A stretch of DNA of 64,000 bases. Source: Bacteroidia bacterium (GTDB taxonomy: Bacteria > Bacteroidota > Bacteroidia > Cytophagales > Flammeovirgaceae). The stretch is taken from positions 62,001 to 126,000 of the forward strand of contig JAUIAB010000002.1 of assembly GCA_030425505.1 (NCBI GenBank). The letters run 5' to 3'. The notes below the pieces were generated by a model, which did not search any database, was not told the DNA's origin, and saw nothing but the letters and a program-made list of their open reading frames with translations. Of this stretch, positions 1,399-45,964 are shown piece by piece (positions within the stretch are counted from its first letter, which is position 1; each line of letters begins with the position of its first letter). Both the position numbers and the translations under genes were made by a program.

Positions 1399-2328
1399 CT
1401 ATTGTAAAAATAAAGCACTTATCGATTCCTGCCTATTTATTTTATGTATTGCTTTTGAAAACAAGTCAGCACTACTTAATACATTTATTTTATTGCAGAC
1501 CTGTTTTAAAGGGAGAGTATCTGTAGAAATGAGCTCTGTTAGTACAGATTTTTGAATCTTATCATAAGCATCTCCAGATAAAACAGGATGAGTGATTACT
1601 GCTCTTACACTTTCCGCTCCATGCTCCATAATAAGCTTAGCGGAGTTGCATATTGTCCCGGCAGTATCAATAATATCATCAACAATGAGGACATTTTTTC
1701 CTTTTACATCCCCAATTAGCTGCATTGAGGCAATTTCATTTGCTCTAACTCTATGTTTATCACAAATTGCCATATCCGCATTAAAATAGCTGGCATACCT
1801 TCTTGCTCTTGCAACTCCACCCATATCTGGAGCAGCAATTATTAAATTATCCAGCCCTAAATTTTTTATATAAGGAACAAATACGGGTGAGGCTTGTAAG
1901 TGGACAACAGGAATATCAAAAAAACCTTGCAATTGATCACTGTGGAGGTCAAAAGTAATAAGTGATGTAGCTCCAGAAGCTTGTAAAAGGTTTGCAATCA
2001 ATTTAGCACTAATAGCTACGCGGGCTTTATCTTTTCTGTCTTGTCTGGCATATCCAAAATAAGGTATTATAGGTGTAACCGTTCTTGCTGAAGCCCTATG
2101 TGCAGCATCTACCATTAAAAGTAACTCCATAATATTCTCTGCAGGAGCTCCTGTTGATTGTACAATAAAGACATCCTGACCTCTGACAGAATCATTTAAA
2201 AAAGTATTGATTTCTCCATCACTAAATTTTTCTGTTATAGACTTTCCTAATGGCTGTCCAAAGCTCTTTGCGATTCTTTCAGAGAGATGCCTAGTTTTAG
2301 ATCCAGAGAATATTACAGTCTTTATCAT
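1399..2328 (-). CDS. prs: ribose-phosphate pyrophosphokinase (PRPP synthetase)
   Basis: Makes phosphoribosyl pyrophosphate from ribose 5-phosphate and ATP for nucleotide, His and Trp synthesis. The 309 residues match the family length. Recognisable parts are the N-terminal FSDGEINTFLNDSVRG loop, the pyrophosphate-loop region YFGYARQDRK (ATP binding), the flexible-loop stretch KARVAISAKLIANLLQ, and the ribose-5-phosphate/PRPP loop VLIVDDIIDTAGTI. The class I allosteric FDLHS motif is also seen (ITFDLHSDQLQGFF). The sequence diverges somewhat from the most conserved bacterial Prs (for example FSGSKTRHLSERIAKSFG at the N-terminus), so a second, canonical copy elsewhere in the genome is possible. 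The identity is firm. Confidence 0.95.
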   Translation of the reverse strand: MIKTVIFSGSKTRHLSERIAKSFGQPLGKSITEKFSDGEINTFLNDSVRGQDVFIVQSTGAPAENIMELLLMVDAAHRASARTVTPIIPYFGYARQDRKDKARVAISAKLIANLLQASGATSLITFDLHSDQLQGFFDIPVVHLQASPVFVPYIKNLGLDNLIIAAPDMGGVARARRYASYFNADMAICDKHRVRANEIASMQLIGDVKGKNVLIVDDIIDTAGTICNSAKLIMEHGAESVRAVITHPVLSGDAYDKIQKSVLTELISTDTLPLKQVCNKINVLSSADLFSKAIHKINRQESISALFLQ

Positions 2329-2425
2329 ACTTCAAAAAAAGTAAAATTTCTTCGAGTTATTGATAATTTAGAAGAATCAAAATAGAATTGGTTGTCTTTT
2401 TTAGGATAAGTATAAAACTGCTGAA

Positions 2426-4327
2426 TTGATTAATAAGATTATAATATCAGGATTATTTGTGATAGTTATTGTATTTTTCAAAAATACGAACCATACTCAT
2501 GCAAAATCTGATAGTAGTACTCTGGACAGTATTCTAAATAATAAAAAGCAGATCAAGGTTTACTACAACGAAAATTATCCATTCATCTACAAAACAGAAA
2601 AAGGCTTTGCAGGTATAGAATATGAAATTATACATGCTTTCACTAAATATGTAAATAAAAAGTATAGCACTAATCTAAAAAAAAAGTGGATTCCAAAGGA
2701 TATACTGTCTAATTTTGAAGAAACAGTTAAAGAAGTTGATAAAAACTGCATTTTAGCTTCTTCTATTTCCATTACAGAGGACAGGAAAAAACATGTTAGG
2801 TTTTCGCCAGCTTATATGCCTGATATAGAAGTTATTGTAACTAGTGACAACTCTGTAGATTATAAAAATATTTCGGAATTTATAAGAGCTTTAAGTTCAG
2901 GTACGGCTGTGTTAATTAGAGGCTCTACATTTGAAGAAAATATACTCCGATTGGAAAAAGAACACAAGGTTACATTCCAAAAAACATATGTTACCAATTT
3001 AAATCAGGTGATCGAAAAAGTAGCTTTAAACCCTGGTTTTTGGGCCTATACACAGCTGTCTAATTATTTTTTCGCAGCAGCAAGTGGAAAAAGAGTTAAA
3101 AGGCAGCGATTTTATCAGGTATCACATGTAGGGCTGGCTCTTGCAATGCCTCATTCCAGCTTTTGGAGTTCATATATAGAAGACTTTTTTAAAACAGAAG
3201 AGTTTAGGCAAGTTTTGGCAAAATCTACTAAACGCTATTTTAAAGAGTTTTCAAGCGGTTTGATGGAACATGATAAAGCTATTTCCACCTCTTTTTTTGA
3301 CTCATTAAATAGTACAGAGGCTGAAAATAAACTTTTGATGATAGAGAGTAAGCTTAAAGAGCTTCAAATAAAAGAAAAGGAAGCTAAGCTTAAGGAGGAG
3401 AGGTTACTACGCAATCTTTTCTTTTTTGGCTTTGGAACATTAATTATTTTCTTGTTTATTCTTTTAAATCTGAACAATATTAAAAAGAGGTCTGCTAAAG
3501 AACTCCATAAGAAAAATAAGGAGATCGAGAAAAAGTCAAATGAGCTAGAGATTTCATTCCAAAATGTAAAAAAGCTGAATGAAAAGATTGAAAAAAAGAA
3601 AACACAGTTGGAAGAAACTAACTTAGAATTAATAGAGCTTAATAATGAAAAGAATTATTTATTAAGTGTATTGGCGCATGATCTTAGAAACCCTTTGACT
3701 AGTTCTCTAAGTGTATTGAATGGAATAAAGAGTAGTGAGGTAACCTATGGCGAAGATATGGAGCTTGGACTTGGTCTAGTTTCTAGGTCTTTGGATAATA
3801 TAAAAGTTATCATAGAAAGAATGCTGGAAAAGAAAAGTACAATAGATTCCAGTGGACTTTTGTGGGAAGGCATTGACCTGAAAGTATTTATTGAGGAAAG
3901 CTTAGATAAGTACAATCTGATTGCAAGCAGAAAGCGAATAAAAATCAAACATGAGTTAGAGTCTTTGACAGTAAAAATAGATAAATTCTATTTGAACCAA
4001 ATATTGGATAACCTTATTTCCAATGCAATTAAGTTTTCTCCTTTTGACAAAAATATTATTATAAATCTAATTGAGAATGAAGGAAATGCCAGATTAGAAA
4101 TAATCGATCAAGGCCCTGGTTTTACTGAAGAGGATAAACAGAAAATTTTTGGAAAGTTTCAACGGTTAAGTGCTAAGCCTACCGATGGGGAACCTTCTAC
4201 AGGCTTGGGTTTATCCATTGTAAAGAATTATGCAGAGCTACTCAAAGGGAAAGTATGGTGTGAAAGTACTGTTGGAAAAGGTGCTAAGTTTATTGTAGAG
4301 TTTGGAGTAATTGATGTTTCTGTTTAA
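2426..4327 (+). CDS. sensor histidine kinase with periplasmic solute-binding-type sensor domain
   Basis: A membrane two-component kinase of 633 residues. The only start in frame after the upstream stop is TTG at 2426, which gives a signal peptide or first membrane segment (GLFVIVIVFF). Residues about 35-275 form a periplasmic SBP_bac_3-like domain (IKVYYNENYPFIYK, GIEYEIIHAFTKYV, ASSISITEDRKKHVRFSPAY). A transmembrane helix follows at about 328-348, then a long coiled coil (350-405), a HisKA domain with phospho-acceptor His418 in LAHDLRNP, and a HATPase_c domain with the N box NLISNAIKFS, G1 IDQGPGFT and G2 GLGLSIVKNY. No receiver domain is fused and no response regulator lies beside it. By analogy with BvgS/EvgS-type kinases it probably senses a small solute. 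The ligand is unknown. Confidence 0.9.
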   Translation: MINKIIISGLFVIVIVFFKNTNHTHAKSDSSTLDSILNNKKQIKVYYNENYPFIYKTEKGFAGIEYEIIHAFTKYVNKKYSTNLKKKWIPKDILSNFEETVKEVDKNCILASSISITEDRKKHVRFSPAYMPDIEVIVTSDNSVDYKNISEFIRALSSGTAVLIRGSTFEENILRLEKEHKVTFQKTYVTNLNQVIEKVALNPGFWAYTQLSNYFFAAASGKRVKRQRFYQVSHVGLALAMPHSSFWSSYIEDFFKTEEFRQVLAKSTKRYFKEFSSGLMEHDKAISTSFFDSLNSTEAENKLLMIESKLKELQIKEKEAKLKEERLLRNLFFFGFGTLIIFLFILLNLNNIKKRSAKELHKKNKEIEKKSNELEISFQNVKKLNEKIEKKKTQLEETNLELIELNNEKNYLLSVLAHDLRNPLTSSLSVLNGIKSSEVTYGEDMELGLGLVSRSLDNIKVIIERMLEKKSTIDSSGLLWEGIDLKVFIEESLDKYNLIASRKRIKIKHELESLTVKIDKFYLNQILDNLISNAIKFSPFDKNIIINLIENEGNARLEIIDQGPGFTEEDKQKIFGKFQRLSAKPTDGEPSTGLGLSIVKNYAELLKGKVWCESTVGKGAKFIVEFGVIDVSV

Positions 4328-4821
4328 AAGTTAATTTTATGCTTTTTGCAATATAAATGCGGGTTACAGTCAGAAATTATACATCCACCAAGCTTTAATT
4401 CCTCTTTCTCTGCACTTTCAAAAGCTTTTTCTGAAGGAAAGCCGTAAAGTATCGGTATAATGTGATCTTCATGCCCATATGGGCATATTGCTGCTAAGGT
4501 CTCACATGAATTTGGGTAAAAAAAGTTAATATTATCTAGACATGGTTCTAAATTATAGTTTAAAATTAATTTATCTCTATACTCACTTGTGCTTAGCTTA
4601 ATGTCATATGTATTTGGTGAGATGTTTTTAATTTCATAATTACCGTTTTTATCTGAATGTCCATTAAATTCTACCTTTCCATCTTTTATTAACTCTATCT
4701 TGACCCATGAAAAAGCAGTGCTATCCCGAAAATCATTTATATGGCCACTGATATCAAAAGTTTGACTGAAAGAGTTAATAGTGCTGATTAAAATTATACT
4801 TATTAAATATATTCGTTTCAT
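4324..4821 (-). CDS. secreted protein: carboxypeptidase-regulatory-like domain plus Cys/His C-terminal motif
   Basis: 165 residues with a signal peptide (MKRIYLISIILISTINSFSQ). Residues 21-90 look like a carboxypeptidase-regulatory/transthyretin-like beta domain (ISGHINDF, GHSDKNGNYEI, ISPNTYDIKLS). The C-terminal third is different. It has CPYGHEDH (Cys113, His117, His120), IIPILYGFP (121-129), LGGC (144-147), then Cys152, Cys158 and His161 in LYCKKH. This spacing resembles the short bacterial CPxCG...YGxP...LGGC...C zinc-ribbon-like proteins, here with the first knuckle turned into Cys/His and attached to an exported domain. Metal binding is an inference. The gene overlaps the end of the convergent kinase gene by 4 bases. 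Confidence 0.65.
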   Translation of the reverse strand: MKRIYLISIILISTINSFSQTFDISGHINDFRDSTAFSWVKIELIKDGKVEFNGHSDKNGNYEIKNISPNTYDIKLSTSEYRDKLILNYNLEPCLDNINFFYPNSCETLAAICPYGHEDHIIPILYGFPSEKAFESAEKEELKLGGCIISDCNPHLYCKKHKINF

Positions 4822-4875
4822 TGTTTTTGTAAATTGCGTGTACTTTGTTTATAAAATTCTATGCCTTTATTGAAC

Positions 4876-4951
4876 TTTCGAAACGAAATCGAAGAACTAA
4901 TTTCTTTCATAACTAGTTTTTTACCTGTAACTTATAATAAGTTATTAACTT
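4876..4951. promoter_or_regulatory. cluster of palindromes upstream of the metal-uptake operon
   Basis: Three inverted repeats lie between the divergent 4324-4821 gene and the operon starting at 4968. They are TTTCG-AAA-CGAAA at 4876-4888, AACTTAT-A-ATAAGTT at 4929-4943, and the overlapping AAGTTA-T-TAACTT at 4939-4951. The last two share an arm and so could be alternative sites for one dimeric regulator. They end 16 bases before the GTG start of the HYC_CC_PP gene, a position expected for a repressor or promoter element. In such AT-rich DNA some symmetry arises by chance, and no regulator can be assigned from sequence. Confidence 0.35.
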
Positions 4952-4967
4952 CGGAGTTTATATTCTT

Positions 4968-5357
4968 GTGAAGAGGCTTGTCTATATATTGTTTCTAGCT
5001 TTTTATGTGTCAGCTTCAACTGGCATAGCAGTTAATATACATTATTGCTCTGGACATGTAGAGTTTGTTGAGCTTATCATTGTAGATGGTAAGTGCAGTT
5101 GTGGAGATAAAGGAAATGCTGATGACTGTTGTGATGATGAAACATTTTTTTTCCAGCTTGATCAAGCGCAACAGTTAACCAAGAACCTGAAGGCTATGAG
5201 TAGCCGAACTAACTTTAGTGAAATCTTCTCTTTCTATACTGCTGGTAATTATTTCCCTTTAGGTAAGAAAGAGGTTAATTTTGATCTTAAAGATTTTTTA
5301 CCTCCTCCAAAGAAACATAGTTGGTTAGTTAACTGTTCTTTAATTTACTATGGATAA
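4968..5357 (+). CDS. HYC_CC_PP family small exported protein (metal uptake locus)
   Basis: 129 residues starting at GTG 4968, the only in-frame start that keeps the signal peptide (LVYILFLAFYVSASTG). It shows the family hallmarks in order: His-Tyr-Cys at 25-27 (NIHYCSGH), Cys43-x-Cys45 followed by adjacent Cys54-Cys55, and a Pro-Pro motif near the C-terminus (FLPPPKKHSW). These proteins are found in Bacteroidota next to HMA chaperones and TonB receptors for heavy metals, which is the arrangement here. The Cys/His set suggests periplasmic metal (copper-type) handling, though the biochemical role is not established. It is the first gene of a three-gene plus-strand operon. Confidence 0.85.
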   Translation: MKRLVYILFLAFYVSASTGIAVNIHYCSGHVEFVELIIVDGKCSCGDKGNADDCCDDETFFFQLDQAQQLTKNLKAMSSRTNFSEIFSFYTAGNYFPLGKKEVNFDLKDFLPPPKKHSWLVNCSLIYYG

Positions 5358-5430
5358 TGTTTACTTTTGCTAAAATTATCTATTGATATATAATAGGATT
5401 TGTATCTAATCAATTTTAAAAACTAATCTA

Positions 5431-5793
5431 ATGAAAACGACTATAAATAAATTTTTGATACTATTTTTTGCTTTACTTACAGCATCTTCTGCTTTTGGAC
5501 TAAAACAAGATAAGAAAGTCGTAAAAACTGCATTCAAAGTATCTGGTACTTGCGGGTTTTGTGAAAAGCGTATTGAAATGGCAGCTCAAATAAAAGGAGT
5601 TAAGTATGCAGAATGGGATAAACATACTAAAGTACTTGAGGTGTTTTACAAACCTAGCCAAACTGATGAAGAATCGATTCATGAAGCGGTAGCAGAAGCA
5701 GGTCACGATACAGAGAAAGTGAAAGCTTCTGACAGAAGCTATGAAAAATTACCTAGCTGTTGTGCTTATCGTGATGGTGCTCATGTGCATTAA
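5431..5793 (+). CDS. exported heavy-metal-associated (HMA) domain protein
   Basis: 120 residues: a signal peptide (residues 1-24), then a ferredoxin-like HMA domain with the metal-binding loop GTCGFC (Cys41, Cys44). The fold continues through VLEVFYKPSQTDEESIHEAVAEAGHD. A C-terminal tail LPSCCAYRDGAHVH carries an extra Cys pair and His residues, typical of the Bacteroidota periplasmic form. It probably binds Cu(I) or a similar soft metal in the periplasm and passes it to or from the outer-membrane receptor encoded 11 bases downstream. The metal identity is inferred from the family and not seen. Confidence 0.88.
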   Translation: MKTTINKFLILFFALLTASSAFGLKQDKKVVKTAFKVSGTCGFCEKRIEMAAQIKGVKYAEWDKHTKVLEVFYKPSQTDEESIHEAVAEAGHDTEKVKASDRSYEKLPSCCAYRDGAHVH

Positions 5794-5804
5794 ACTAAGC
5801 GATA

Positions 5805-8048
5805 ATGAAACAGAAAGGATGGATAGTATTCTTTCTGTTATTTTTTTCAACTAGCCTTTTCGGACAGAAAAGTAAAAAATACATTGAGGGAAAAGTAACA
5901 GAAGAATCAAATACTGATGAAGAGATTTCTCTCATTGGTGCTAATGTTTATTGGCTTCATACAACTGAGGGAAGTTCAACGGATGCAAACGGAAACTTCA
6001 AGCTAAATCGTATTGAAGAGACAAGTAAGCTTGTTATTAGCTATATCGGCTATCAGAGCGATACTATTGATACCCAAGGAAAGAATTTTATTCATGTTCA
6101 TCTGATAGCTAGTTTATTAGATGAAGTTGAGGTAGTATATCGTCAAAAGTCAACAGAGATCGACTATATCGACCCAATAAAAGTAGAGCATATTGGGGAG
6201 AAAGAATTGTTGAAAGCTGCTTGCTGTAACCTTTCGGAAAGCTTTGAAACTACACCAAGTGTAGATGTTTCTTTTACAGATGCGGTTACTGGTACACGAC
6301 AGATACAAATGCTTGGATTGGCAGGACCTTATACTCAAATAACAAGGGAAAATATGCCTGATGTAAGAGGGCTATCTGCTGTATATGGTCTTACGTATGT
6401 TCCTGGAACATGGGTAGAGGGTATACAGTTGAATAAAGGGGCTGGTTCTGTTGCAAATGGTTTTGAGAGTATAGCTGGACAGATAAATGTAGAACTTCGT
6501 AAGCCAGAGGATGCCGAGCAATTGTATTTGAATGCTTATGCTAATGAGGGCGGCAGGGTAGAGGTAAATGCTAATTTTGCGCATAGATTCAAAGAAAACA
6601 GATGGTCGACTGCTTTATTACTACATGGAAAGAATAATTCAGTAAAATGGGATAGAAATAAAGATGGTTTTCTTGATAATCCCTTGAGTAATCATTTCAT
6701 TGGTTTAAATAGATGGAAGTATATCAGTTCTAGCGGTTTGCGTTTTCAGTTTGGGGTAAAAGCAACTTATATTGATAATATAGGAGGGCAAATCGGCTTT
6801 GATCCATCAAGAGATGCTTTAGGAAATGATAAATGGGGGATGAACCTAAATATGCAGCGATTGGAAGGATGGGCTAAAGTGGGTAAAGTTTATGAACAAA
6901 TGCCTTGGAAGAGCCTTGGCTTTCAGATTTCTGGAGCAACACATAAACAGGATAGCTATTTTGGGTTAAATGATTACGATGCTTCACAGAATTCATTTTA
7001 TGCTAATTTTTTATATCAAAGTATTTTGAGCAATAATAATCATAAGTTTAAAACGGGGATAAGCTTGCAGTATGACGATTATAAAGAAATGCTTAATAAT
7101 GCTGCTTTTGACCGCACTGAAATAGTTCCAGGAGCATATTTGGAGTACACTTACAGCCATTTAGAAAAGTTTAGCCTTGTTGCTGGTGTTAGAGCTGATT
7201 ATCACAATCTTTTTGGGGCTTTTGTAACGCCAAGACTGCATCTTAGATATGCCATAACTGAAAATACGATTCTACGGGCTAGTGGGGGTAGGGGACAGCG
7301 TACAGCAAATATATTATCTGAAAACAATGCTTTACTAGCAAGTTCCCGACAAATTATTATTCAAGGCGATGATAGCGATAAGCCCTATGGTTTAAAACCT
7401 GAAGTAGCATGGAATTACGGTATTAATTTGACTCAGTCATTTCGACTTAACTATAAAGAAGGAACCATAAGTGCTGACTTTTATCGTACAGACTTTGAAA
7501 ACCAGATTGTTACAGATCTTGATCAAAGCCCTCAAGAGGTGGTATTCTATAACTTGCAAGGAAAATCGTATTCGAATAGTTTTCAGGCACAGCTAGACTA
7601 TGAAATAGCTGAGCATTTTGATATAAGACTGGCGTATAGGTGGTTTGATGTTCGAACTACTTACCATGGAAACCTGATGCAAAAGCCACTGATAGCTGCG
7701 CATCGTTCTTTTTTAAACCTTGCTTACGAGACACATAGTAACTGGAAGTTTGATTATACTATCAATTGGCAGGGACAAAAACGTATTCCGTTTACGGAAA
7801 GTAACCCTGAGGAGTACCAACTAAAGTATTACTCGCCTGATTTTACTGTGATGAATGTGCAAGTTAGTAAAATGTGGAAGGAGAAGTTTGAAGTGTATTT
7901 TGGCGTTGAAAATTTGCTTGGTTTTAGGCAGTCAAATCCAATACTTTCCAGCGAGCAACCTTTTAGCCCTAATTTTGATAGTTCTTTGGTTTGGGGACCA
8001 ATATTTGGGAGAAATACTTATGTTGGAGTGCGGTATAGATTGAAGTAG
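5805..8048 (+). CDS. TonB-dependent outer-membrane receptor, putative copper/heavy-metal type
   Basis: 747 residues with a signal peptide ending near LFGQ. A carboxypeptidase-regulatory-like domain spans about 24-105 (VTEESNTDEEISLIGANVYW, ISYIGYQSDTI). The plug domain follows (about 120-225; ESFETTPSVDVSFTDAV, QIQMLGLAGPYTQI, GAGSVANGFESIAGQINVEL). The rest is a long beta-barrel ending in GRNTYVGVRYRLK, the usual aromatic-rich outer-membrane insertion end. The plug is the subtype seen beside HMA and HYC_CC_PP proteins, so the cargo is probably a metal or metallophore, although vitamin or siderophore uptake is not excluded. It needs TonB/ExbBD, which are not in this window. A strong hairpin follows the stop codon. 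Confidence 0.9.
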   Translation: MKQKGWIVFFLLFFSTSLFGQKSKKYIEGKVTEESNTDEEISLIGANVYWLHTTEGSSTDANGNFKLNRIEETSKLVISYIGYQSDTIDTQGKNFIHVHLIASLLDEVEVVYRQKSTEIDYIDPIKVEHIGEKELLKAACCNLSESFETTPSVDVSFTDAVTGTRQIQMLGLAGPYTQITRENMPDVRGLSAVYGLTYVPGTWVEGIQLNKGAGSVANGFESIAGQINVELRKPEDAEQLYLNAYANEGGRVEVNANFAHRFKENRWSTALLLHGKNNSVKWDRNKDGFLDNPLSNHFIGLNRWKYISSSGLRFQFGVKATYIDNIGGQIGFDPSRDALGNDKWGMNLNMQRLEGWAKVGKVYEQMPWKSLGFQISGATHKQDSYFGLNDYDASQNSFYANFLYQSILSNNNHKFKTGISLQYDDYKEMLNNAAFDRTEIVPGAYLEYTYSHLEKFSLVAGVRADYHNLFGAFVTPRLHLRYAITENTILRASGGRGQRTANILSENNALLASSRQIIIQGDDSDKPYGLKPEVAWNYGINLTQSFRLNYKEGTISADFYRTDFENQIVTDLDQSPQEVVFYNLQGKSYSNSFQAQLDYEIAEHFDIRLAYRWFDVRTTYHGNLMQKPLIAAHRSFLNLAYETHSNWKFDYTINWQGQKRIPFTESNPEEYQLKYYSPDFTVMNVQVSKMWKEKFEVYFGVENLLGFRQSNPILSSEQPFSPNFDSSLVWGPIFGRNTYVGVRYRLK

Positions 8049-9176: not shown

Positions 9177-10232
9177 TCACCTAAAGCTAAGCGCAACTCC
9201 TCCAGTAGCAGATAAATACTTATTTGCAGTGATGTCAGCCCAAATGTGGAGTATAGAAAGGTCAAGCATAATCCCTGCGGTACTTCTAAATCCGTTACCT
9301 GAGACATTGAAAGAGAACGGGTCTTTGAAGTTAACAGATGTAGTTTGGTTAGTATAAATATCAGTATAGGTAATGCTGTAATCTCCAAGCATATTTAATG
9401 ATGTATTGTATTTATCATAGCCAACGGCACCATAAAATGTTAAGAAGCTGTAGGTTTTTGATATTATCCCTTGAAATGTAAGCCCATAAATATTTAAGTC
9501 TAACCCAGAACCTTGGCTGGCTCTTATACCATCCGTATTAAATTCAGTGGTATTCGTATATCTAAGATTCAAATTGGTAAATCCTCCCATTATGGATAAC
9601 TCAAAAGGTCTTTTGTCTTTTTCAAAGATCCATTCTGCTACATTATGTGATATTCCTCCTCCCTTCAGATCAACAGAAAAACCTTCGTATTCATATTTTG
9701 GCATATACCGAAGCCTCAAATTAGTCCCTTTGAATACACCTACACCAGCTTGTACCATCGGCATTGGTATATAAGGAACTCCTAGCCCAGGTATACCATC
9801 AAATTCAAAATTGAGGTTGTATTCATTTCCATCAATATTTATAGCACCACTGTATTGAAGTTTAGGGGCATCGCTTGAACCTGCAATAGTTGGGAGTTTA
9901 CCATCAGACGTATCTACAGCATTAATATCGCTCAACCCTAAGTTTTGAAGATTGAAGCTTTGCTCGCTCCCAGGTATTTGTGCTACAGAAGCTGTAACTG
10001 CAATGTCAAACCCTAATATTTTGTGTGATTTTGCTGTATTGTACCAGCCATTATTGATACCATGCCCCATTCCATGTAAAGCAGGATTTAAGTATGCCTG
10101 TAGTATTTTTTGAGCATTACCATTTTCTATTCCAGCTTTGAGAAATGTAGTAATATCATCTTGTGCTATTAGGCTACTTGTGAATAAAGATAAGGCAATC
10201 AGAGTAGCTGTTCTAGTAAATTTATTTTTCAT
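9177..10232 (-). CDS. DUF6588 family outer-membrane-type protein
   Basis: About 351 residues from the ATG at 10232; another ATG three codons upstream is equally possible. A signal peptide ends near SSLIAQ. The mature part resembles the Bacteroidota DUF6588 family: an N-terminal segment with repeated GMGHGINNGWYNTAK, GLGVPYIPMPMVQAGVGVFKGT, LRLRYMPKY and alternating polar/aromatic strands suited to a beta-barrel, ending YLSATGGVALSFR with a terminal aromatic residue. Likely outer membrane; the function is unknown. It lies alone between the arsR locus and a deacetylase gene. Confidence 0.75.
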   Translation of the reverse strand: MKNKFTRTATLIALSLFTSSLIAQDDITTFLKAGIENGNAQKILQAYLNPALHGMGHGINNGWYNTAKSHKILGFDIAVTASVAQIPGSEQSFNLQNLGLSDINAVDTSDGKLPTIAGSSDAPKLQYSGAINIDGNEYNLNFEFDGIPGLGVPYIPMPMVQAGVGVFKGTNLRLRYMPKYEYEGFSVDLKGGGISHNVAEWIFEKDKRPFELSIMGGFTNLNLRYTNTTEFNTDGIRASQGSGLDLNIYGLTFQGIISKTYSFLTFYGAVGYDKYNTSLNMLGDYSITYTDIYTNQTTSVNFKDPFSFNVSGNGFRSTAGIMLDLSILHIWADITANKYLSATGGVALSFR

Positions 10233-10307
10233 GATAAACAATGATTTAATTTAGACAATGAGCCATTGTTTAATCAGGAAATCGAACTATATTAAACTAG
10301 CGGCCTA

Positions 10308-10943
10308 CTATAGTTTTACGAAAGAGAAGCCTTGTTGCTGAAAATGGTGAAGTATTTTGGGTAAAACGAATGTAAGGTTTGATTCTGCCTTTAAGCTATC
10401 ATGAAAAACAATGATAGATCCGGGTTCAATATTTCTCTTCGTTTTTTTTAAACATCTTTCTGGTGTTAAGTTACTTTTATAGTCACCACTTAGTACATCC
10501 CACATGATTATATTATACTCCTTTTTGAGAAGACCAATTTGGCTAAATTTTATTCTTCCATATGGAGGTCTGAAGAGAGGTTTCTGGTCAAAGGAGTGGT
10601 ATCCCTGTGCTAATAGTTCCATCTGGCATCTTTTTATATCTTGTTGATATTCATAGTCATCAACAGCCCACCCGTTTAAATGTTTATGCGTATGATTTCC
10701 AATACTATGACCTTCATTTATTATTCTGCTAAATAGTCTAGGGTATTTGTTAACATTATCTCCAATACAAAAAAAGGTGGCTTTTGCATCATATTTGTTT
10801 AGCTCTTCTAAGATATAAGGAGTTGTTTTTGGGTTAGGTCCATCATCAAAAGTTAAGAAGATTTCTTTATCAAAAGCTTTCTTTTTCCAAGTGAGCATTG
10901 GATATAAAAATTTTTGCAAAAACCAACCTGTCTTAAATAGCAT
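10308..10943 (-). CDS. polysaccharide deacetylase (NodB homology) family protein
   Basis: A metal-dependent carbohydrate N-deacetylase of about 211 residues. The NodB motifs are intact: TFDDGP (catalytic base Asp and metal Asp), HTHKH (metal His pair), RPPYG (motif 3), DVLSGDY (motif 4) and FHDS (motif 5). The N-terminal MLFKTGWFLQKFLYPMLTW could be a short membrane-associating segment. I chose the ATG at 10943 because it matches the usual family start and overlaps the upstream mscS-like gene by only 11 bases; a start at 10970 is also open. It is coupled to the MscS gene as an operon. The substrate (peptidoglycan or exopolysaccharide) is unknown. Confidence 0.88.
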   Translation of the reverse strand: MLFKTGWFLQKFLYPMLTWKKKAFDKEIFLTFDDGPNPKTTPYILEELNKYDAKATFFCIGDNVNKYPRLFSRIINEGHSIGNHTHKHLNGWAVDDYEYQQDIKRCQMELLAQGYHSFDQKPLFRPPYGRIKFSQIGLLKKEYNIIMWDVLSGDYKSNLTPERCLKKTKRNIEPGSIIVFHDSLKAESNLTFVLPKILHHFQQQGFSFVKL

Positions 10944-11853
10944 TATTGGCAGATTTAAGCTCTTCTCCAATATATTTTACTACGCTTCTCACCGTAAGTT
11001 TTTTAATGTCTTTTTCTAAATCTCTATTTGGTTTTTTTAAAAGATACTGAAATTTTAGCCAGATAGAATCTTTCTTAATTTCTTTTACTTTCAGCGTGAA
11101 ACTATTGTCTTCTATTTCATTTTTAAATACATGTAATTTTTTGATAAGAAATTCTTCTAAAGCATCTACATCTTTTACGGCATTTAAAGATACTTCCAGG
11201 TCAAGGGAAATTTTACGAATAGGCCTTTTTGTGTAGTTAATTACATTAGTTGTAAGTACAATATTGTTAGGAATATATATGATATCGTCATCTTCATTTA
11301 GTAGATGGATATTTGTAAGAGTAATATTGATGATTTTACCTTTAAAAGCACCAACTTCAACAAAATCGTTGATAGAGATTTGGTCTGAAAACATAATTAT
11401 CATTCCATTGATCATGTTGGAGACATAGTCTTTGGATAGTATTGCAATTGCTGCTGCAAAAATACTTATGGAAGTAAAAAAGCCTTGGAGGCTTATGTCG
11501 AAAAGCATTCCAATCGATAGCAGGAGGATAACTATTTTCACTAATGAAGCTATAGTATTGATGCCAATTACAAAATTATAGGACAGCTTTCCAGACCTTC
11601 TCTTTCTTATGAAGTAAGAGACAGTAAGAGTTCTACCAATAGAAATTAGAATATTAAACCCCAAATAAAATAGAATTGCATTAATATATATCTGTGTTAG
11701 CTTTAAGGTCTTAAGTAATTCAGGATGAAAGCTTTGTACATATACTATCCCAGAAAGTATAATTACTTTTATAAGTAATAGAATTTTTCTTCTATTCTCA
11801 TATTCTAGTACTTTCCTAACCACAAGACTTAAAGGTTCTTTTTCTTTCTTCAT
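10933..11853 (-). CDS. small-conductance mechanosensitive channel (MscS family)
   Basis: 306 residues. About three to four hydrophobic helices in the first 150 residues are followed by the pore-lining helix GFFTSISIFAAAIAILSKDY. The beta domain comes next (ISINDFVEVGAFKGKIINITLTNIHL, IIYIPNNIVLTTNVINYTKRP) and then the C-terminal alpha/beta cage. Its length and arrangement are standard for MscS-like channels that relieve turgor on hypo-osmotic shock. It is the first gene of a two-gene minus-strand unit with the deacetylase, which suggests a shared envelope role. Confidence 0.9.
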   Translation of the reverse strand: MKKEKEPLSLVVRKVLEYENRRKILLLIKVIILSGIVYVQSFHPELLKTLKLTQIYINAILFYLGFNILISIGRTLTVSYFIRKRRSGKLSYNFVIGINTIASLVKIVILLLSIGMLFDISLQGFFTSISIFAAAIAILSKDYVSNMINGMIIMFSDQISINDFVEVGAFKGKIINITLTNIHLLNEDDDIIYIPNNIVLTTNVINYTKRPIRKISLDLEVSLNAVKDVDALEEFLIKKLHVFKNEIEDNSFTLKVKEIKKDSIWLKFQYLLKKPNRDLEKDIKKLTVRSVVKYIGEELKSANNAI

Positions 11854-12018: not shown

Positions 12019-12672
12019 TTGAATAAAATTAGGCTTGAAGTACTAGGTTTATCCGCAAGACATGTTGAATCTGACTCATGCGCATTAGTTTTAGGAGAAG
12101 CATCTGGTACCAGAAGGCTTCCTATAATTATTGGTATACCTGAAGCTCATGCTATTTTTGTTGAAATGCACGATGTAACTGCTAGCATGGCTCATAAAAA
12201 AAGACCTATGCCACATGATCTATTTAAGGGTCTAGCCGATCACTACAATGTTAATGTTCATGAGGTTTTAATAAATGCGTTAAAAGAGGGTGTTTTTTAT
12301 GCAAAAATTATTTGTTCTTTAGAAAGTGGAGAAGGTTATCTTGAGTTAGATTCCAGAACTTCTGATGCTATAGCTATTTCTATACGAGTTGGCTGCCCAG
12401 TATACGTGGATAGCAAAATTATGGATGAAGCTGGAGTTGAACTTAGCGAAATAGAAGGAGAGAAAAAGAAAAAAACAAGTTCTTCCATTGCACAAAAGAC
12501 ACCTCAAAAGTCCTATCAATCAGATATTAGCCAAACCCCTTCCAATAAAAAAAGCTCTTTTGAAAATCTTTCTTTAGATCAGCTAAACGCTCTTTTATTA
12601 GATGCTGAAAAGAACGAAGACTATGAAAAATGTGCTCAAATAAAAGAAGAGATAGATAAGAGATCTAAATAG
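12019..12672 (+). CDS. bifunctional nuclease family protein (DUF151) with UvrB/UvrC motif
   Basis: 217 residues starting at TTG 12019. The nearby ATG at 12012 is in another frame and meets a stop after four codons. Residues 1-140 form the DUF151/BFN domain (LGLSARHVESDSCALVLGEA, RRLPIIIGIPEAHAI, DSRTSDAIAISIRVGCPVYV), found in proteins with reported DNase/RNase activity. A low-complexity Ser/Lys linker (155-180) leads to a C-terminal UVR motif (LNALLLDAEKNEDYEKCAQI), a UvrB/UvrC-type interaction helix pair. This two-part form is common in Bacteroidota. The cellular target is unknown. Confidence 0.9.
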   Translation: MNKIRLEVLGLSARHVESDSCALVLGEASGTRRLPIIIGIPEAHAIFVEMHDVTASMAHKKRPMPHDLFKGLADHYNVNVHEVLINALKEGVFYAKIICSLESGEGYLELDSRTSDAIAISIRVGCPVYVDSKIMDEAGVELSEIEGEKKKKTSSSIAQKTPQKSYQSDISQTPSNKKSSFENLSLDQLNALLLDAEKNEDYEKCAQIKEEIDKRSK

Positions 12673-12691
12673 ATAAGTTTTTTGTGTGCTT

Positions 12692-15600
12692 TTAACTTTT
12701 CTTTTTCGAAAGTATTAATAATAGACCTATTAGGATGACTAATATTAAGATTAGCCATATATAAATGTAATTTATTTCTATGCTAATTGATTGGGTATTG
12801 CCTATTGGAGCAAATGAAGCCCAATAATAGGGTTGTGAAGTGTTTTCATCAGTAGTTTTAAGATAACTTAGTTTGGCCTTTCTTAAAGCATTATCTTTTG
12901 GTAACCCTTCTTTTAAATTTTGATAAAAGGATTTCATTATCTCCACTGTGCTGTAATCGTCTACGTCCCAAAGGCTCATGACCAGGCTGGGGCTTCCTGC
13001 ATACATGAACGCTCTAGCTAAGCTTATGACTCCTTCCCCTTGTTCTAGTTTACCACTTCCCGTCTGGCAAGCACTTAGTACCACCATTTGCGAAGGAAAC
13101 TGCAAATTGTATATCTCATGAATGTGCAGCTGACCATCTTCTATAGAGTCAGTGGATGGTGCAAATAAAAGCCTTGAATTTTGTGGGTTTACATCATCTA
13201 CTATGCCATGCATTGCAAGGTGAATAATCTGGTATTGCTTGGCAAATTGTTTGAAATTATTTTCTGTAGCTTCTTCACCGACAAAAAAAGATCCTTTTGT
13301 ATAGTCAGATATTGCTTTTACTTCCTGAAGAGCTCCTGGAAGGTTGGTGTTTGGTATTTGAATTTTGATATTATTAAGTTTTCCTCGAAATGAAAATGAT
13401 GGGTTTTGGCTTATTTCTACATTAGGGTCATAAATTGGGGCAAAGGCTAGACATTTGGTGCTTTTTGTATTATTTTTTGTTTGGTTTTTAGCCCAAATGG
13501 TAGAGGATAGATTATAAGAAATTGCTACTTTTTTTATTAAATAGTTTAAGGTAGAAAAGCTACTTTGTTGATCTACACTACTTACTAGTAGTTCAAAGGG
13601 AAGGTAGTGCAATTGCCCATCTGGTATTATAGTCATATTTTCAGTTAGAGCCGTAGTTTTTACTATAGGCTGAATTAGTTTTTCCCAGAGGGAATGTCCA
13701 ATTTTAGAAAAAAGAGCTTTGTCAGAGCTTTTTGAGGTTATTAAATTCCTGAAATTGGTAATATACTGATAAAGGGTTGAATCTATATTTGAGGAGAAAA
13801 GCTGAAATTTATCTTTTTTAATGTGAAAAAGGAAGAGCTTTTTTTTGCCCATAAAATATTCTATTATGGAATGGGTAGAATCGGGTAGGAGGGACTGAAT
13901 ATCATTTATGGAAGATATCTCATGTTGATATTTAAGATCGTAATACTCTGGAAATGTGTTTTCAAAGTAGGTTATAAGTGAGTCTAGTTTTCTTGATACA
14001 TTAAAAAGATTTTTTTGATGTAGGCTTACTTTGATAGAATCTTTTTTTATAGATGCACTGGTAAGTTGTTTTTCGTAGAATGCTTTTTGTCCTCTAAGGT
14101 CTTTTTCTTTAATTATTAGAGAATCTGGAATATTGGCAAATTTTTTAGCATAGGATTCTCTAATGGCTTTTTGTAGAAAAAAAGATTTGCTTTTCTCAGC
14201 TAATACAAACGCATTATGTAAATAACTAGAGTCAGTAGTTTTAAGAAAAAGTTGTTGAGCTGTTCGGATGCTTCCTTCATAAATTTCTAGTCCTGTTTCA
14301 TTTAAAACTTTGGTATTTTCTTTTCCAAGTTCAAATCTTAGGGTATCAATAAGCTGAGTAGCAAGGGAGTAGGTATTAAATGAAGCAGCCAGATATTTTA
14401 TTTTTTCAGAATCATTTTCGGTAGAATAGTCGTCTAATATTTTAGCCTTAATATCAAGTACTTTTAAAAGGGTAGCTTTAGAATTTATCGCTCGAAGCGG
14501 AGGGTTAGTGAATATATTTTCATTATTAAATTGAGTAGCCAAGTTAATTATAGCCTCCTGACAGTTTTCTAAGGCAAAAGTATATTCCCCTTTTGTCATA
14601 TATGCTTTGCCAATGTTATAGTATGAAGCTCCAAGATTGGGATGTTTTTCTGCATAAGATTTTCGCCTTATTTTTAGAGCTTTATTATAATAAAAAAGAG
14701 CTTTATCATAGTCATCATTCATAAAGTAAGCCACTCCCATTTTATTGTAATTACTTGCTAGGTAAGGATGATTTTCTCCAAGTAATTCAATTAAAATTTC
14801 CTCGGATTTTTCGTAATAGCTTTTTGCGGTTGAGAAATTATCTAGAAAAAGATATGAATCAGCTATGTTGCTAAATACAATCGCTGTATGTACATGTTTT
14901 ACTCCATAAGTATTTTGCAAAATATTTATTACTTTATTGTATACTTCAATTGCTTTAGTATAATTTTCTGTTTTATGAAAATTGATGGCGATAGAATTAT
15001 AATAGTTAGCTACTGTAACATGATTATTTCCAAAAATACGAATCGCAATATCAATAGCTTTTTGGTTGTATTCAATAGCTTTTTTATAATCTCCTAAATC
15101 TTTAAAACAAGCACTCATGCTGTGATAGAAAAGGGCTAAGTCTTGTTGGTCTGACTTAAAAATTTTTATACCAATTTGTATTGCCTCATTATAAAACTTT
15201 AGAGCACTTTCATAATTTCCTATGAATCTGTTAATTTGTCCTAAATCATTCAAAGCATTAGCGACTTTTTCATGATTAAATCCAAATGCTTTTTTTCTTA
15301 TATCTAAAACTTCATTAAAAATTATTAAGGCACTATCATAATGTCCGTTGGTTTGCATCAAAAATCCCACCTCTCTTTTGGTATCTGCCACAAGAGGATG
15401 ATTTTCTCCATAAGTCCTTGTTCTGATTTTTATAGATTTATAAAAGTTTTTTAGTGCTTCATCATATTTGCTTTTCTTTCCAAAAAAATCTCCGATATTA
15501 TGATAGCTTAATCCAACAGATGGGTGGTTTTCTCCAAAATAGTTAATATTAATCTCTAATGCTTTTTTGTAACTCTCAAGTGCTTTCTCATAATCTCCCA

Positions 15601-42627: not shown

Positions 42628-42892
42628 AATCAAATTTAGATAATTGCTTAGCACTAGATATCGCTTCATTTGTAAACAGAGCAAATGTAGTATCGGAAGG
42701 TTTTTAATCAAATAAGATTTGTTCTATAAATGAACTTTTTTTCAGCTTGGTCTAAAAAAAAATCCTACTGAGGAGCAATGCTTTAGTAAAAGCTAATTAT
42801 TTGGGGTTTATTTAAAATAATTCTAAATAAAATATTTAAAAAGGAAAGAAGTAGCATATTATTAGTTGCTAATATTTCTTGAGGAGAAGAAG

Positions 42893-42963
42893 AGGTCACG
42901 AGCGGATTCGAACCGCTGTAGGAGCTTTTGCAGAGCCCAGCCTAGCCACTCGGCCACGTGACC
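42893..42963 (-). tRNA. tRNA-Cys (anticodon GCA)
   Basis: Read on the minus strand, the acceptor arms GGTCACG and CGTGACC pair over 7 bp. The D-arm region is TGGCCGAGTGGCTAGGC. The anticodon arm is GGGCT-CTGCAAA-AGCTC with anticodon GCA. The T-arm is CAGCGG-TTCGAAT-CCGCT. The 3' CCA is not encoded. It separates the act operon from the candidate peptide locus. A tRNA gene next to an accessory locus is a common integration point, but I see no integrase or att duplication. Confidence 0.95.
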
Positions 42964-43125: not shown

Positions 43126-43983
43126 TTAATTTTTACAGTTTTCTAAAATAGACTGTTCAACTTGTTGCTCGTAGATTTCTGAAAATAACTCAACATAAGT
43201 ATCAGAGGATTTATACCCTTGCTTAATTAATATGTAGGCCTTATTAAGATTGTGGCAAGCAGTATCTTTATCTTTTAAATCTAATTTTAACAGAGCAAGT
43301 CCTTTGTAATAATAAGCTTCAGAAGATTTATCATTACTCTTAATTGCTTTATTGAATACTACAATAGCCTCTTCGTGCATCTTCAAATTGAATAAGCATA
43401 TTCCCTTATTAAGGTAAACTTGATAATCTACCCAACCCTCCCCATGCTCTTTAGATGCATTATCTATGGAAGTATTAAATTCTTGAATGGCTATTTCATA
43501 TTTATGAAGTTGCATATAAGCTAACCCTTTCAAATAGTGAATACATTCACCCATAGGCCAATCCGAAAAACCTGGAGTTGAATCATCATATTTATTCAAA
43601 ATTTCTAGAGATTTTTCATAATCATGATAATAGTATAATAAAACCCATCCATAATACGCTCCAGCTTCATCAGGATCCATTTCATATGCCTTTTCTAATG
43701 CAGACATAGCAATATTGTAATTACCATTTTTTGTATTTTGAACAGATAGCGCATGGTAAATTTCAGCGCTTGGATTTTCCATTTTAGATATAGCAAAACT
43801 CATAATTTGATTGCCTCGTTCATTATTACCATTATATACTTGTGAGTAACCAAAATAAAATAGTAACATATAAACAACTTGATTAAATATAACACCAAGA
43901 ATAGTGATCAGTAAAAACAGTGATAGAAAAAAGATTAAAATTCTCTTTTTCCTTTTTTTTTTCTTCTCTTTTGATTTAATCAT
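43126..43983 (-). CDS. membrane-anchored tetratricopeptide repeat protein of the peptide locus
   Basis: 285 residues. A Lys/Arg-rich start (KSKEKKKKRKKR) precedes one long hydrophobic segment (ILIFFLSLFLLITILGVIF), so the rest would be outside the cytoplasmic membrane. About five TPR units follow (NYNIAMSALEKAYEMDPDEA, KYEIAIQEFNTSIDNASKE, MHEEAIVVFNKAIKSNDKSS, DTACHNLNKAYILIKQ). No catalytic motif is seen. The ATG overlaps the stop of the lipoprotein gene (43980-43983), so it is cotranslated with it as the last gene of the locus. Possible roles are docking, secretion or immunity for the peptide product; none is demonstrated. Confidence 0.8.
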   Translation of the reverse strand: MIKSKEKKKKRKKRILIFFLSLFLLITILGVIFNQVVYMLLFYFGYSQVYNGNNERGNQIMSFAISKMENPSAEIYHALSVQNTKNGNYNIAMSALEKAYEMDPDEAGAYYGWVLLYYYHDYEKSLEILNKYDDSTPGFSDWPMGECIHYLKGLAYMQLHKYEIAIQEFNTSIDNASKEHGEGWVDYQVYLNKGICLFNLKMHEEAIVVFNKAIKSNDKSSEAYYYKGLALLKLDLKDKDTACHNLNKAYILIKQGYKSSDTYVELFSEIYEQQVEQSILENCKN

Positions 43984-44420
43984 TTTGGTAAAATATCTAT
44001 TAATCTTCCATCAGCAACTTTAAAAGCTAAAAACTTGTGGCTATCAATACTTTCACCGTCATCATCTATAGCTGGAATCCAATTTTTCAAACCTTTGGTT
44101 AAGCGCAATAATTGATCAATTATTTTTTGATTAATTGTTTCATATTCATAATCAAGAGAGTATGTAGCTATTTTATAATTTCCTGCTTCTCCCGAACAAT
44201 TTACTTGAAACTGAATACGTACTATACCTGTACTTTTATCACTCTGTATGTTTTTATAATTGTCGTAGAAATGTTTTTTTATCTCATAAAAATCACCCTC
44301 ATAATAAAGAGTAGGATAATAGTATGGATACTTTTCACTCGAACATAGCTGGAAATCACTATTTGAGGAATTACAGGCAGCTAATAAAAAAGTAAGAATT
44401 ATCGAAAAATTACTTTTCAT
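43980..44420 (-). CDS. lipoprotein with TonB-C-like domain in the peptide locus
   Basis: 146 residues with a lipoprotein signal (IILTFLLAAC). The mature domain runs from STGIVRIQFQVNCSGEAGNYKIATYS through YETINQKIIDQLLRLTKGLKNWIPAIDDDGESIDSHKFLAFKV. This is the pattern of the C-terminal domain of TonB-type proteins: a GxVRxxFxV strand, a helix with KxxKxWxPA, and a final strand. There is no N-terminal membrane helix or proline-rich linker, so it is not a classical TonB. The start overlaps the end of the HQTGH protein gene by 11 bases and its stop overlaps the TPR start, which shows operon coupling. It may help export or surface display of the peptide. Confidence 0.72.
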   Translation of the reverse strand: MKSNFSIILTFLLAACNSSNSDFQLCSSEKYPYYYPTLYYEGDFYEIKKHFYDNYKNIQSDKSTGIVRIQFQVNCSGEAGNYKIATYSLDYEYETINQKIIDQLLRLTKGLKNWIPAIDDDGESIDSHKFLAFKVADGRLIDILPK

Positions 44421-45621
44421 CTAAATGAATAGGGTTTAGCTCTTTAAATAAAGAATAAGAAAAATTGTATAGCTGGTTGTCAAGCTTTAAATTTTGAACT
44501 TTCGTAAACCATTTTTTACTCACTTCAATGTGTTTTCTTTTCACTTCAGTAAAAATTTTTAATCCTTTTTTAGTAAATAGCTTTTTTGGATCTGTATCAA
44601 TGTTTTTGCTTTCTTCAAAAATTTTTAAATCCAAATAGCATTTTCCTATATAAAATTTCATTCTTCCTAAAAGCTCATGCAATTTTTCGCCATCAAATAC
44701 ATTTTTTTCTAACATTGCATCTAAGCATATGAATGTTGTGTAATATGTATAAAGAGCATGAAAAACAACATGTATATCTCTAGTTTCAACTATTTCATTT
44801 TCATTATTTTTTAGCTCTTGAACTATATATGAAGGCTCAATACTGAGAAAATCACCTATATCATAAATTAAAGCATTAAATATTATATGACCTGTTTGAT
44901 GCGCAATATCATCAACAAAGAATACCTCATTATAATTTTCTTGATAAGCATTAAAAAAAGCAATGCCTTGAGCGCTTAGCGTTGCAAATGAATTTCTTAA
45001 ATTATCACTGACATTGAAAATAACCACTTTCTTAGTAACTGATTCAATAAGTTGATAATGTTCGGGAATATGCTTCTTGATTAAATGGAAGGCTGTGGTT
45101 AAATTTTCTTTGTGTTTTATTGTGATTTTCTCAATTTCAACTTCTATTCTATTTAAATATTCATCATAATAAAATTGCTCTAATATTGGGATAGGGTATT
45201 TAATCAACTCTATTTTAGTATCTTTAATTATTTCACTTGGTTCATATTTAAACTCGTAAATATTATGACTGTCTTTTAATGAAAAGTTTTGACTTGATTT
45301 AGTTAGTTCTAACCCTTTTAGCTTATACTTTGTAACTAACCATCCACTATTTGGGATGTAAACCCTACCATATTTATCGGTGCTAACCTTAATTATATAT
45401 TTCGGATTACTACTGTAACCAATAATTATTAAATCAAGATACTCTTTGTAATTCTCTTTATTCTTGAAATAAGCAAAAAACAATGGTTCTTGATAAATTT
45501 TATCATCTTCAAAATCTAAAATTTCAAAAATATCTTGTCTCTCTTTGTATAGTAATATTTTTATATTTTCAATTAATTGTTCCCTGCCAGTTCTAAATTT
45601 ATTTTCTACTTCTTCAAACAT
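44410..45621 (-). CDS. candidate RiPP-modifying enzyme, HExxH-type peptide hydroxylase-like (HQTGH variant)
   Basis: 403 residues, no signal peptide, so cytoplasmic. Residues 1-195 are not recognised. Residues about 200-330 resemble the mod_HExxH/alpha-ketoglutarate HExxH peptide beta-hydroxylase family seen beside peptide precursors. The helix DDIAHQTGHIIFNALIYD has His241 and His245 with Gln instead of Glu at 242. About 40 residues later comes RDIHVVFHALYTYY (His284, His288), where the family has its further metal-ligand segment. The Glu-to-Gln change would spoil a zinc protease but not an Fe/2-oxoglutarate centre held by two His. The gene follows the precursor peptide gene on the same strand. 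The family assignment is by eye and needs profile testing. Confidence 0.6.
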   Translation of the reverse strand: MFEEVENKFRTGREQLIENIKILLYKERQDIFEILDFEDDKIYQEPLFFAYFKNKENYKEYLDLIIIGYSSNPKYIIKVSTDKYGRVYIPNSGWLVTKYKLKGLELTKSSQNFSLKDSHNIYEFKYEPSEIIKDTKIELIKYPIPILEQFYYDEYLNRIEVEIEKITIKHKENLTTAFHLIKKHIPEHYQLIESVTKKVVIFNVSDNLRNSFATLSAQGIAFFNAYQENYNEVFFVDDIAHQTGHIIFNALIYDIGDFLSIEPSYIVQELKNNENEIVETRDIHVVFHALYTYYTTFICLDAMLEKNVFDGEKLHELLGRMKFYIGKCYLDLKIFEESKNIDTDPKKLFTKKGLKIFTEVKRKHIEVSKKWFTKVQNLKLDNQLYNFSYSLFKELNPIHLDEK

Positions 45622-45713
45622 TTATTATTTATTATAATATATTAACTCATTTAGCTTTTAAAATTATAATAATGTGTGAAGCTTTTATATGTTGCCTAAG
45701 CACATTAACTTAA

Positions 45714-45750
45714 ATGTAAAGAGGCTGTTTTTTCTTGCAGCCTCATTTAA
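45714..45750 (-). terminator. intercistronic hairpin between precursor and enzyme genes
   Basis: Arms GAGGCTG (45721-45727) and CAGCCTC (45738-45744), extended by TTAAATG and CATTTAA outer pairs, fold on the minus strand 20 bases after the precursor stop. The trailing sequence is only moderately T-rich. It could end most transcripts and let some read through, giving more precursor than enzyme. Confidence 0.6.
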
Positions 45751-45763
45751 AAGCATTCTTTGA

Positions 45764-45964
45764 TTAATCCCACCAATGTCTTGTGTGGTCATCCTCATCA
45801 GGAGTGAAAAGATCCTTCAGATAATTCATTACTTTTGCACCAGTACCATCGCATCCATGACAGTCTGACCAATTTCCTCCTTGAACTTTCTCAAGCACTT
45901 TGTCAGTGTTTACATTTTCTACTTTTGCCTTAAAAGCCTCGAGACTTAATCTTTTTTTGCGCAT
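45764..45964 (-). CDS. candidate RiPP precursor peptide with double-glycine leader
   Basis: 66 residues. The leader (1-30) is charged and helical, RLSLEAFKAKVENVNTDK then VLEKVQGG, ending at Gly29-Gly30, the classic site for a peptidase-containing ABC transporter. The core (31-66) begins NWSDCHGCDG, with Cys35 and Cys38 in a CHGC motif, and ends DDHTRHWWD, rich in Asp, His and Trp. Size, leader and neighbours fit a modified peptide or bacteriocin precursor of Bacteroidota. A TATATTTG promoter lies upstream and a hairpin separates it from the enzyme gene. No exporter gene is in the window. A plain class II bacteriocin is the alternative. Confidence 0.7.
   Translation of the reverse strand: MRKKRLSLEAFKAKVENVNTDKVLEKVQGGNWSDCHGCDGTGAKVMNYLKDLFTPDEDDHTRHWWD

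Follow-up and report, generated by a model that had tools for sequence, protein, structure and literature searches.

A double-glycine peptide with an invariant Cys-His pair and a predicted alpha-ketoglutarate HExxH-fold enzyme encoded together in Bacteroidota

We analysed a 64,000-nucleotide stretch of DNA from a Bacteroidia bacterium of the Flammeovirgaceae (assembly GCA_030425505.1, contig JAUIAB010000002.1, positions 62,001 to 126,000 of the forward strand; hereafter referred to as the window), in which four minus-strand open reading frames (ORFs) encode a 66-residue peptide, a 403-residue putative enzyme, a 146-residue putative lipoprotein and a 285-residue protein with tetratricopeptide repeats (TPRs). 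An initial annotation had read them as a locus for a ribosomally synthesized and post-translationally modified peptide (RiPP), in which an HExxH-type enzyme acts on a peptide with a Gly-Gly leader. The positions and lengths of the four ORFs were confirmed, and the HQTGH motif (residues 241–245) and the downstream segment RDIHVVFH of the enzyme, which terminates at His288, are both present, as are the overlaps between the enzyme and 146-residue ORFs (11 bases) and between the 146- and 285-residue ORFs (4 bases). A spacer of 143 bp separates the peptide and enzyme genes. The features, in window coordinates, are as follows.

45764..45964, minus strand: ORF for the predicted RiPP precursor, 66 residues; the leader ends with Gly29-Gly30 and the core begins NWSDCHGCDG
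45857..45862, minus strand: codons of Cys35-His36, the predicted modification site (invariant pair in the precursor alignment)
45721..45744, minus strand: hairpin GAGGCTG-loop-CAGCCTC with a 7-bp stem, between the peptide and enzyme genes
44410..45621, minus strand: 403-residue enzyme, alpha-ketoglutarate-HExxH-like, HQxGH variant (AlphaFold model, fold matches and weak TIGR04267 matches of relatives)
44887..44901, minus strand: HQTGH motif, residues 241–245, with predicted metal-binding His241 and His245 (H[QE]xxH conservation)
43980..44420, minus strand: 146-residue putative lipoprotein, possibly TonB-C-terminal-domain-like (lipobox-like LAAC)
43126..43983, minus strand: 285-residue membrane-anchored TPR protein (Pfam TPR_2, 1.6e-13)

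Comparison with related loci showed that the enzyme, predicted to have the fold of Fe/alpha-ketoglutarate HExxH oxygenases, co-occurs with a double-glycine precursor in which a Cys-His (CH) pair is invariant. The window peptide has Gly-Gly (GG) at residues 29–30 and CH at residues 35–36, and in its alignment with 33 relatives G29, G30, C35 and H36 alone were invariant. A profile built from the leader only retrieved 46 peptides at E < 1e-6 from the pooled loci (two of them duplicates, from locus L009, and nine from loci outside the profile building). All 46 share the GG of the leader and contain GG-x(4-10)-CH, with exactly four residues between the two pairs in 39; the residue before CH is A in 20, D in 10, G in 5, S in 4, N in 3 and another in 4. 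The remaining small GG ORFs, 144 in number, include three with this pattern, among them the decayed precursor of genome G260. The 34 training peptides had been chosen by patterns, one of which requires CH, and the held-out loci matter for this reason: in all seven loci found via the enzyme only, a leader-type GG..CH peptide lies at most 1 kb from the enzyme gene.

We tabulated 30 enzyme loci, after removal of L009, which is the same locus as L022. A leader-type GG-x(4-10)-Cys-His peptide is encoded in 27 of them, always on the strand of the enzyme, and in 22 of these the nearest precursor is within 1.3 kb of it. Peptide and enzyme occur together in 28 loci if the weaker peptides of L029 (Aureispira) are counted, which hit the precursor profile at E values of 0.055–0.49 and lack GG but keep ...LGDCH; the two loci without a peptide are short contigs (L023, 3.0 kb; L025, 6.3 kb). 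When 395 genomes of the phylum were searched with the precursor profile, scores below 1e-10 were confined to the five genomes with enzyme hits, four of which had supplied training sequences and the fifth of which holds enzyme fragments only. The next-best score (7.9e-5) came from G282, which has weak leader-like peptides without CH and no enzyme match. The genome of the window itself has one precursor match. Since GG and Cys-His are the sole invariant features, the alignment makes the Cys-His pair the likely target of the enzyme.

The enzyme was modelled with AlphaFold (AF2) from an input with 21 relatives, giving a predicted local distance difference test score (pLDDT) of 90.8 and a predicted template modelling score of 0.91. 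Comparison of the model with the PDB yielded E values of 4e-9 for 22ob (SjiH-Ni) and 2e-6 for 8s5f (the HExxH domain of ChlB, described in the entry title as an alpha-ketoglutarate dependent oxygenase), the next value being 0.87. In structural alignments, 22ob gave a Z score of 24.5 (4.3 A, 347 residues) and 8s5f one of 23.1 (2.9 A, 281 residues); the next match had a Z score of 7.5, and metallopeptidase structures matched only near Z 5. Because 22ob and 8s5f stand far above all else, we predict with confidence that the window enzyme has the alpha-ketoglutarate HExxH fold of the ChlB/SjiH group; its cofactors and reaction we infer from this assignment. At the level of sequence, 7 of 23 family members, the window copy not among them, matched the mod_HExxH profile TIGR04267 at E <= 1. 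The best two relatives scored 2.2e-6 and 3.2e-6, both under the curated cut-off, and the best covered profile positions 2–160 of 177. As the curated cut-off was missed and the literal HExxH is missing, the HQxGH enzymes are called here, on the basis of the model, a new branch of the alpha-ketoglutarate HExxH fold group outside TIGR04267. Sequence searches of the PDB returned matches that we judged to be due to chance: 84 at E <= 1 in one search (best 0.02, the 60 listed being hemagglutinins) and one putative angiotensinogen (0.1) in a second.

Taken together, these results uphold the reading of the locus as a RiPP locus and of its enzyme as HExxH-type, with a peptide conserved next to the enzyme at the protein level in other genomes. 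Of the checks proposed in the initial annotation, structural prediction led to 22ob and 8s5f, and the TIGR04267 search succeeded weakly for relatives but not for the window protein; likeness in profile or structure and conservation of the peptide, whose absence was to have spoken against the annotation, were both found.

The enzyme is present in a single copy in its own genome. Searches for it gave matches in 2 of 97 near genomes, in 5 of 395 genomes of the phylum (each count including its own genome; G260 has fragments only) and, within one family, in 11 of 397 genomes (G738 and G848 with weak partial matches only). A contig scan based on an alignment led to 20 named loci, and a scan with the single window sequence found no relatives. 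The stretches of G260, G738 and G848 (L110, L107 and L106), which stand outside the 30 loci, were inspected, as were L108 (G282) and L109 (third peptide of G403). That of G260 (1838-3824) is a decayed cluster with enzyme and HlyD fragments, in which a GG..CH peptide survives. A tree was made of 33 enzyme copies; outside it, though among the 30 loci, are L025, where the enzyme is partial, and L099, where a broken frame splits it into two ORFs. L007, L008 and L025 were left out of alignments A6 and A8, and a degenerate copy from L018 is in A6 but outside A8. Relatives are 21–51% identical over the alignment, or 25–51% after removal of one degenerate copy. The tree includes Flavobacteriaceae, Weeksellaceae, Sphingobacteriaceae, Crocinitomicaceae, Paludibacteraceae, Chitinophagaceae, Saprospiraceae, Spirosomataceae and others, and groups the window enzyme, with 98/99 support, with copies from Flavobacterium, Chryseobacterium and an unplaced metagenome-assembled genome of the Flavobacteriales. 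This patchy taxonomic spread suggests that the enzyme may have been spread by horizontal transfer. In 22 aligned copies, no substitution occurs at His245, His288 or Glu316, and His241 and Arg320 are almost invariant; H[QE]xxH is retained in 29 of the 33 copies (HQxxH in 26, HExxH in 3, neither in 4).

Two features of the related loci bear on the modified residue. First, L018 (11904-13037), L100 (7207-8346) and L101 (5814-6959) encode, alongside their first enzyme copy, a degenerate one that lacks HxxxH; these degenerate copies form one 100/100 clade, and precursors with two CH motifs occur only in these three loci. The degenerate copy is a possible pseudoenzyme partner. Second, L008, L021, L022, L024 and L028, whose peptides are of the GILGACH type, encode a CmoA-like protein next to a methyltransferase that belongs to the carnosine N-methyltransferase family. 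In L022 (Croceitalea; 12206-12913 and 12922-14244) the CmoA-like protein matched TIGR00740 at 1e-43, below cut-off, and the methyltransferase matched PF07942 at 7e-15 and ovoA_Cterm at 4.5e-9, the latter below cut-off; the other four loci were assigned by similarity to this pair. L029 also carries a methyltransferase (PF07942, 5e-16), and histidine-type methyltransferase homologues are found in 6 of the 30 loci. Carnosine- and ovothiol-type methyltransferases act on imidazole, and CmoA-like proteins make carboxy-S-adenosylmethionine (carboxy-SAM). The combination in one subclade points to His, suggesting that the core His may be methylated or carboxymethylated in GILGACH-type loci. Elsewhere, a RiPP thiohemiaminal is reported to be carboxymethylated by a carboxy-SAM dependent enzyme (PMC12636315; this and the papers below are cited from the portions of their texts consulted). 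PF07942 had no match in the window genome. L029 combines ...LGQVLGDCH peptides without GG, a homologue of the grasp-with-spasm ATP-grasp maturase and a CARME-type methyltransferase (features at 549-725, 806-991, 4655-4837 and 1119-2114), and is a possible hybrid RiPP locus.

The initial annotation had regarded the set as unusual for want of a peptidase-type ABC exporter. We counted exporter, TPR, TonB-C-like and methyltransferase-pair genes by their phmmer similarity to a small set of named query proteins, Pfam and NCBIfam being applied to examples only. The exporter is indeed absent from the window locus, and from L099 and L100 within the stretches taken. A peptidase-ABC type exporter is, however, encoded in 26 of the 30 loci and HlyD in the same 26 (HlyD is short in L018, L025 and L101, with 169, 299 and 317 residues, and the ABC protein is split over two ORFs in L012), and the genome of the window has such a pair on contig C6: a peptidase-ABC protein, 53% identical to that of a relative, plus HlyD. 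The genome's exporter matched TIGR01193 (peptide cleavage/export ABC) at 2.6e-131, under cut-off. On the stretch of C6 that we took (L063), a GG peptide without CH, the peptidase-ABC and HlyD lie at 3219-3407, 3716-5908 and 6380-7672, respectively; they probably constitute a peptide system of their own and perhaps also export the window peptide. For double-glycine RiPPs, an exporter gene in the cluster is the usual but not a universal arrangement. Thus, the lack of an exporter is local and does not set the locus apart; the main point of the annotation holds and this one does not. In L011, the peptide, enzyme, lipoprotein-like and TPR genes are followed by one further gene and then by ABC and HlyD, so that the window locus resembles a trimmed version of this arrangement.

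We consider it probable that the locus encodes a double-glycine RiPP modified by an oxygenase, with the invariant Cys-His as target and a chemistry that would follow from the enzyme's fold. A number of observations weigh against this interpretation. TIGR04267 had no match to the window enzyme at E <= 5 and none in 198 genomes of the phylum at 1e-3, a search in which the control, in Haloferax volcanii, was weak; even the best relative scored 27.8 bits, the curated cut-off being 40 bits. Neither 8s5f nor 22ob was among the matches listed from the PDB sequence searches. The motif is HQxxH (HQTGH in the window) rather than the literal HExxH in 26 of the 33 copies. In 5 of the 27 loci with precursors, the peptide gene is 2.3–5.1 kb from the enzyme gene, and the CH precursor of L007 adjoins LanB. 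The exporter of the window genome is unlinked and stands beside a GG peptide of its own, without CH. Finally, L015 has, beside an intact enzyme, a second copy (9995-11167) outside the degenerate clade with KQSGH, in which Lys replaces the first motif His, and yet its peptides have a single CH; the association of broken-motif copies with doubled CH is thus not a general rule, and the argument from it is weakened.

As to the reaction, beta-hydroxylation of His is the simplest proposal and a bond between Cys and His the boldest. In the latter case the enzyme would join the adjacent Cys and His through a crosslink or a thiohistidine-like thioether instead of hydroxylating, which we regard as rather unlikely. 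Cys-His is the sole invariant pair of the core, PMC12636437 cites an alpha-ketoglutarate enzyme that forms a Cys-Tyr crosslink in a RiPP, and the methyltransferase of the GILGACH subclade is related to the C-terminal part of OvoA and to carnosine N-methyltransferase; but the similarity to OvoA is only distant (36 of 170 bits), the search of the window genome for PF07942 gave no homologue, and the consulted parts of PMC12636437, PMC13060819 and PMC12707348 describe no HExxH member that makes such a bond. We are similarly doubtful that the peptide serves in metal binding or signalling, with Cys-His kept for binding and some other, variable residue as the one modified by the enzyme. Cys-His could act as a pair of metal ligands and the residues flanking it vary, but the doubling of CH in the three loci with degenerate copies suggests that the enzymes read CH itself, a pattern into which L015 does not fit. 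Still less probable is a zincin metallopeptidase that trims or cleaves the precursor without oxidising it. The HxxxH motif does sit on a helix of the AlphaFold model, and PflC, a related alpha-ketoglutarate HExxH enzyme, hydrolyses a substrate truncated by loss of the leader (PMC12636437). However, of the 29 copies in which the motif is intact, 26, that of the window included, have Gln at the position of the peptidase Glu of HExxH, the closest folds are by a wide margin those of alpha-ketoglutarate HExxH enzymes, and the GG site is already served by a peptidase-ABC type exporter in 26 of the 30 loci. A chance grouping of an unrelated small ORF with a hypothetical gene, for which it could be said that Pfam recognises just one of the four window proteins, is refuted by the pairing of peptide and enzyme in 28 of the 30 loci, the weaker L029 peptides counted, the other two being on short contigs.

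ChlB, BpmH, PflC/PosC, PesO and BipH are alpha-ketoglutarate HExxH enzymes that carry out hydroxylation or backbone cleavage (PMC12636437, PMC13060819, PMC12707348), and the residues of RiPPs for which beta-hydroxylation by members of the family is described are His, Asp, Phe, Gln and Pro (PMC13060819). ChlB, which hydroxylates Asp and His (PMC12636437), shares with the window enzyme the predicted fold and acts on a RiPP precursor; the two are only about 11% identical in the structural alignment, ChlB has HExxH where the window has HQTGH, and the precursors differ. SjiH is the best structural match at 10% identity, and among the open-licence papers searched we found none on it. As with PflC/PosC of Pseudomonas and PesO of Peribacillus, the enzyme gene shares a RiPP cluster with the gene for a precursor, but their precursors bear a Gln run and ARMD, or R(V/T)DN preceded by a Pro, and their clusters also encode a multinuclear non-heme iron-dependent oxidase (MNIO) (PMC12636437, PMC13060819), which is not among the four window proteins (the related loci were not searched for it). 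In their leaders the precursors also resemble the GG-leader peptides of TIGR04149, which matched 4 of 34 at E <= 1 (best 0.017); the window peptide gave no match, and TIGR04149 is named for radical SAM modification. No radical SAM enzyme is among the window's four proteins, where no dedicated search for it was made. We found no open-licence report, as far as its text was consulted, of an HExxH enzyme with a Cys-His precursor in Bacteroidota, the Cys-His motif not having been a query, and the consulted part of PMC10734526 contains nothing on such a pair; a title and abstract query for hydroxyhistidine in RiPPs gave no open-licence paper.

The proposed enzyme would recognise the LSLExFK...GG leader, hold Fe(II) through His241 and His245, with either His288 or Glu316 as third ligand, and use alpha-ketoglutarate and O2 to oxidise the core at or next to Cys-His, beta-hydroxylation of His being the simplest outcome. 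The modified peptide would be cleaved after GG and exported by peptidase-ABC/HlyD, encoded in-cluster for most relatives and here probably acting in trans from contig C6. The lipoprotein and the TPR protein are accessory, putative envelope proteins, with delivery, immunity or processing as candidate roles; the initial annotation had proposed export, display or immunity for the pair, and many loci lack one or the other.

Homologues of the TPR protein are found in 22 of the 30 loci and those of the TonB-C-like lipoprotein in 12, the window included in both counts; L008 has in addition an ORF in which lipoprotein and enzyme are fused, possibly by a frameshift, as a signal-peptide-like stretch lies inside the fusion. 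The TPR protein has a Lys-rich (basic), hydrophobic membrane anchor and Pfam TPR matches down to 1.6e-13, in agreement with the initial annotation, and was the only one of the four window proteins recognised by Pfam. With NCBIfam it gave TPR-family matches, all below cut-off, the enzyme and the peptide gave none, and the 146-residue protein gave one match at chance level. The model of the 146-residue protein (pLDDT 83) matched TonB C-terminal domains at Z 4.6–6.9, below a clear level and similar to ATP-grasp chains; the best Foldseek E value for a TonB domain was 0.17, and Pfam TonB did not match. The hairpin at 45721-45744, which had likewise been annotated, has its stem in both the minimum free energy and centroid structures, with the folding energy of its 86-nt segment no better than that of shuffled sequences (z -0.55); it is a possible attenuator. 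LanB/LanC-like genes are present in two of the 30 loci (L015:14862-19526 and L007:894-5596), and in L015 a GG peptide of a different type, without CH, adjoins LanC. Directly downstream of the window's TPR gene, at 42892-42963, lies a tRNA-Cys gene, a possible insertion point of the cassette.

The locus family is apparently an undescribed branch of modified-peptide natural products. More speculatively, and in our view rather improbably, it may represent an undescribed RiPP class, widespread in Bacteroidota, whose HQxGH-variant oxygenase modifies a near-universal Cys-His pair, possibly to an S-imidazole or thiohistidine-like metal-binding unit; in one subclade, the carnosine/ovothiol-type methyltransferase with its CmoA-like partner would then carboxymethylate the His. 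If Cys-His does become a modified metal site or a crosslink, the reaction would be without precedent in the literature that we consulted, in part, for this enzyme fold. The findings would add to the alpha-ketoglutarate HExxH peptide oxygenases a branch from Bacteroidota that escapes the NCBI model, tie this branch to a single two-residue target, Cys-His, and provide, in GG-x(4)-CH, a rule that predicts its substrates from sequence alone.

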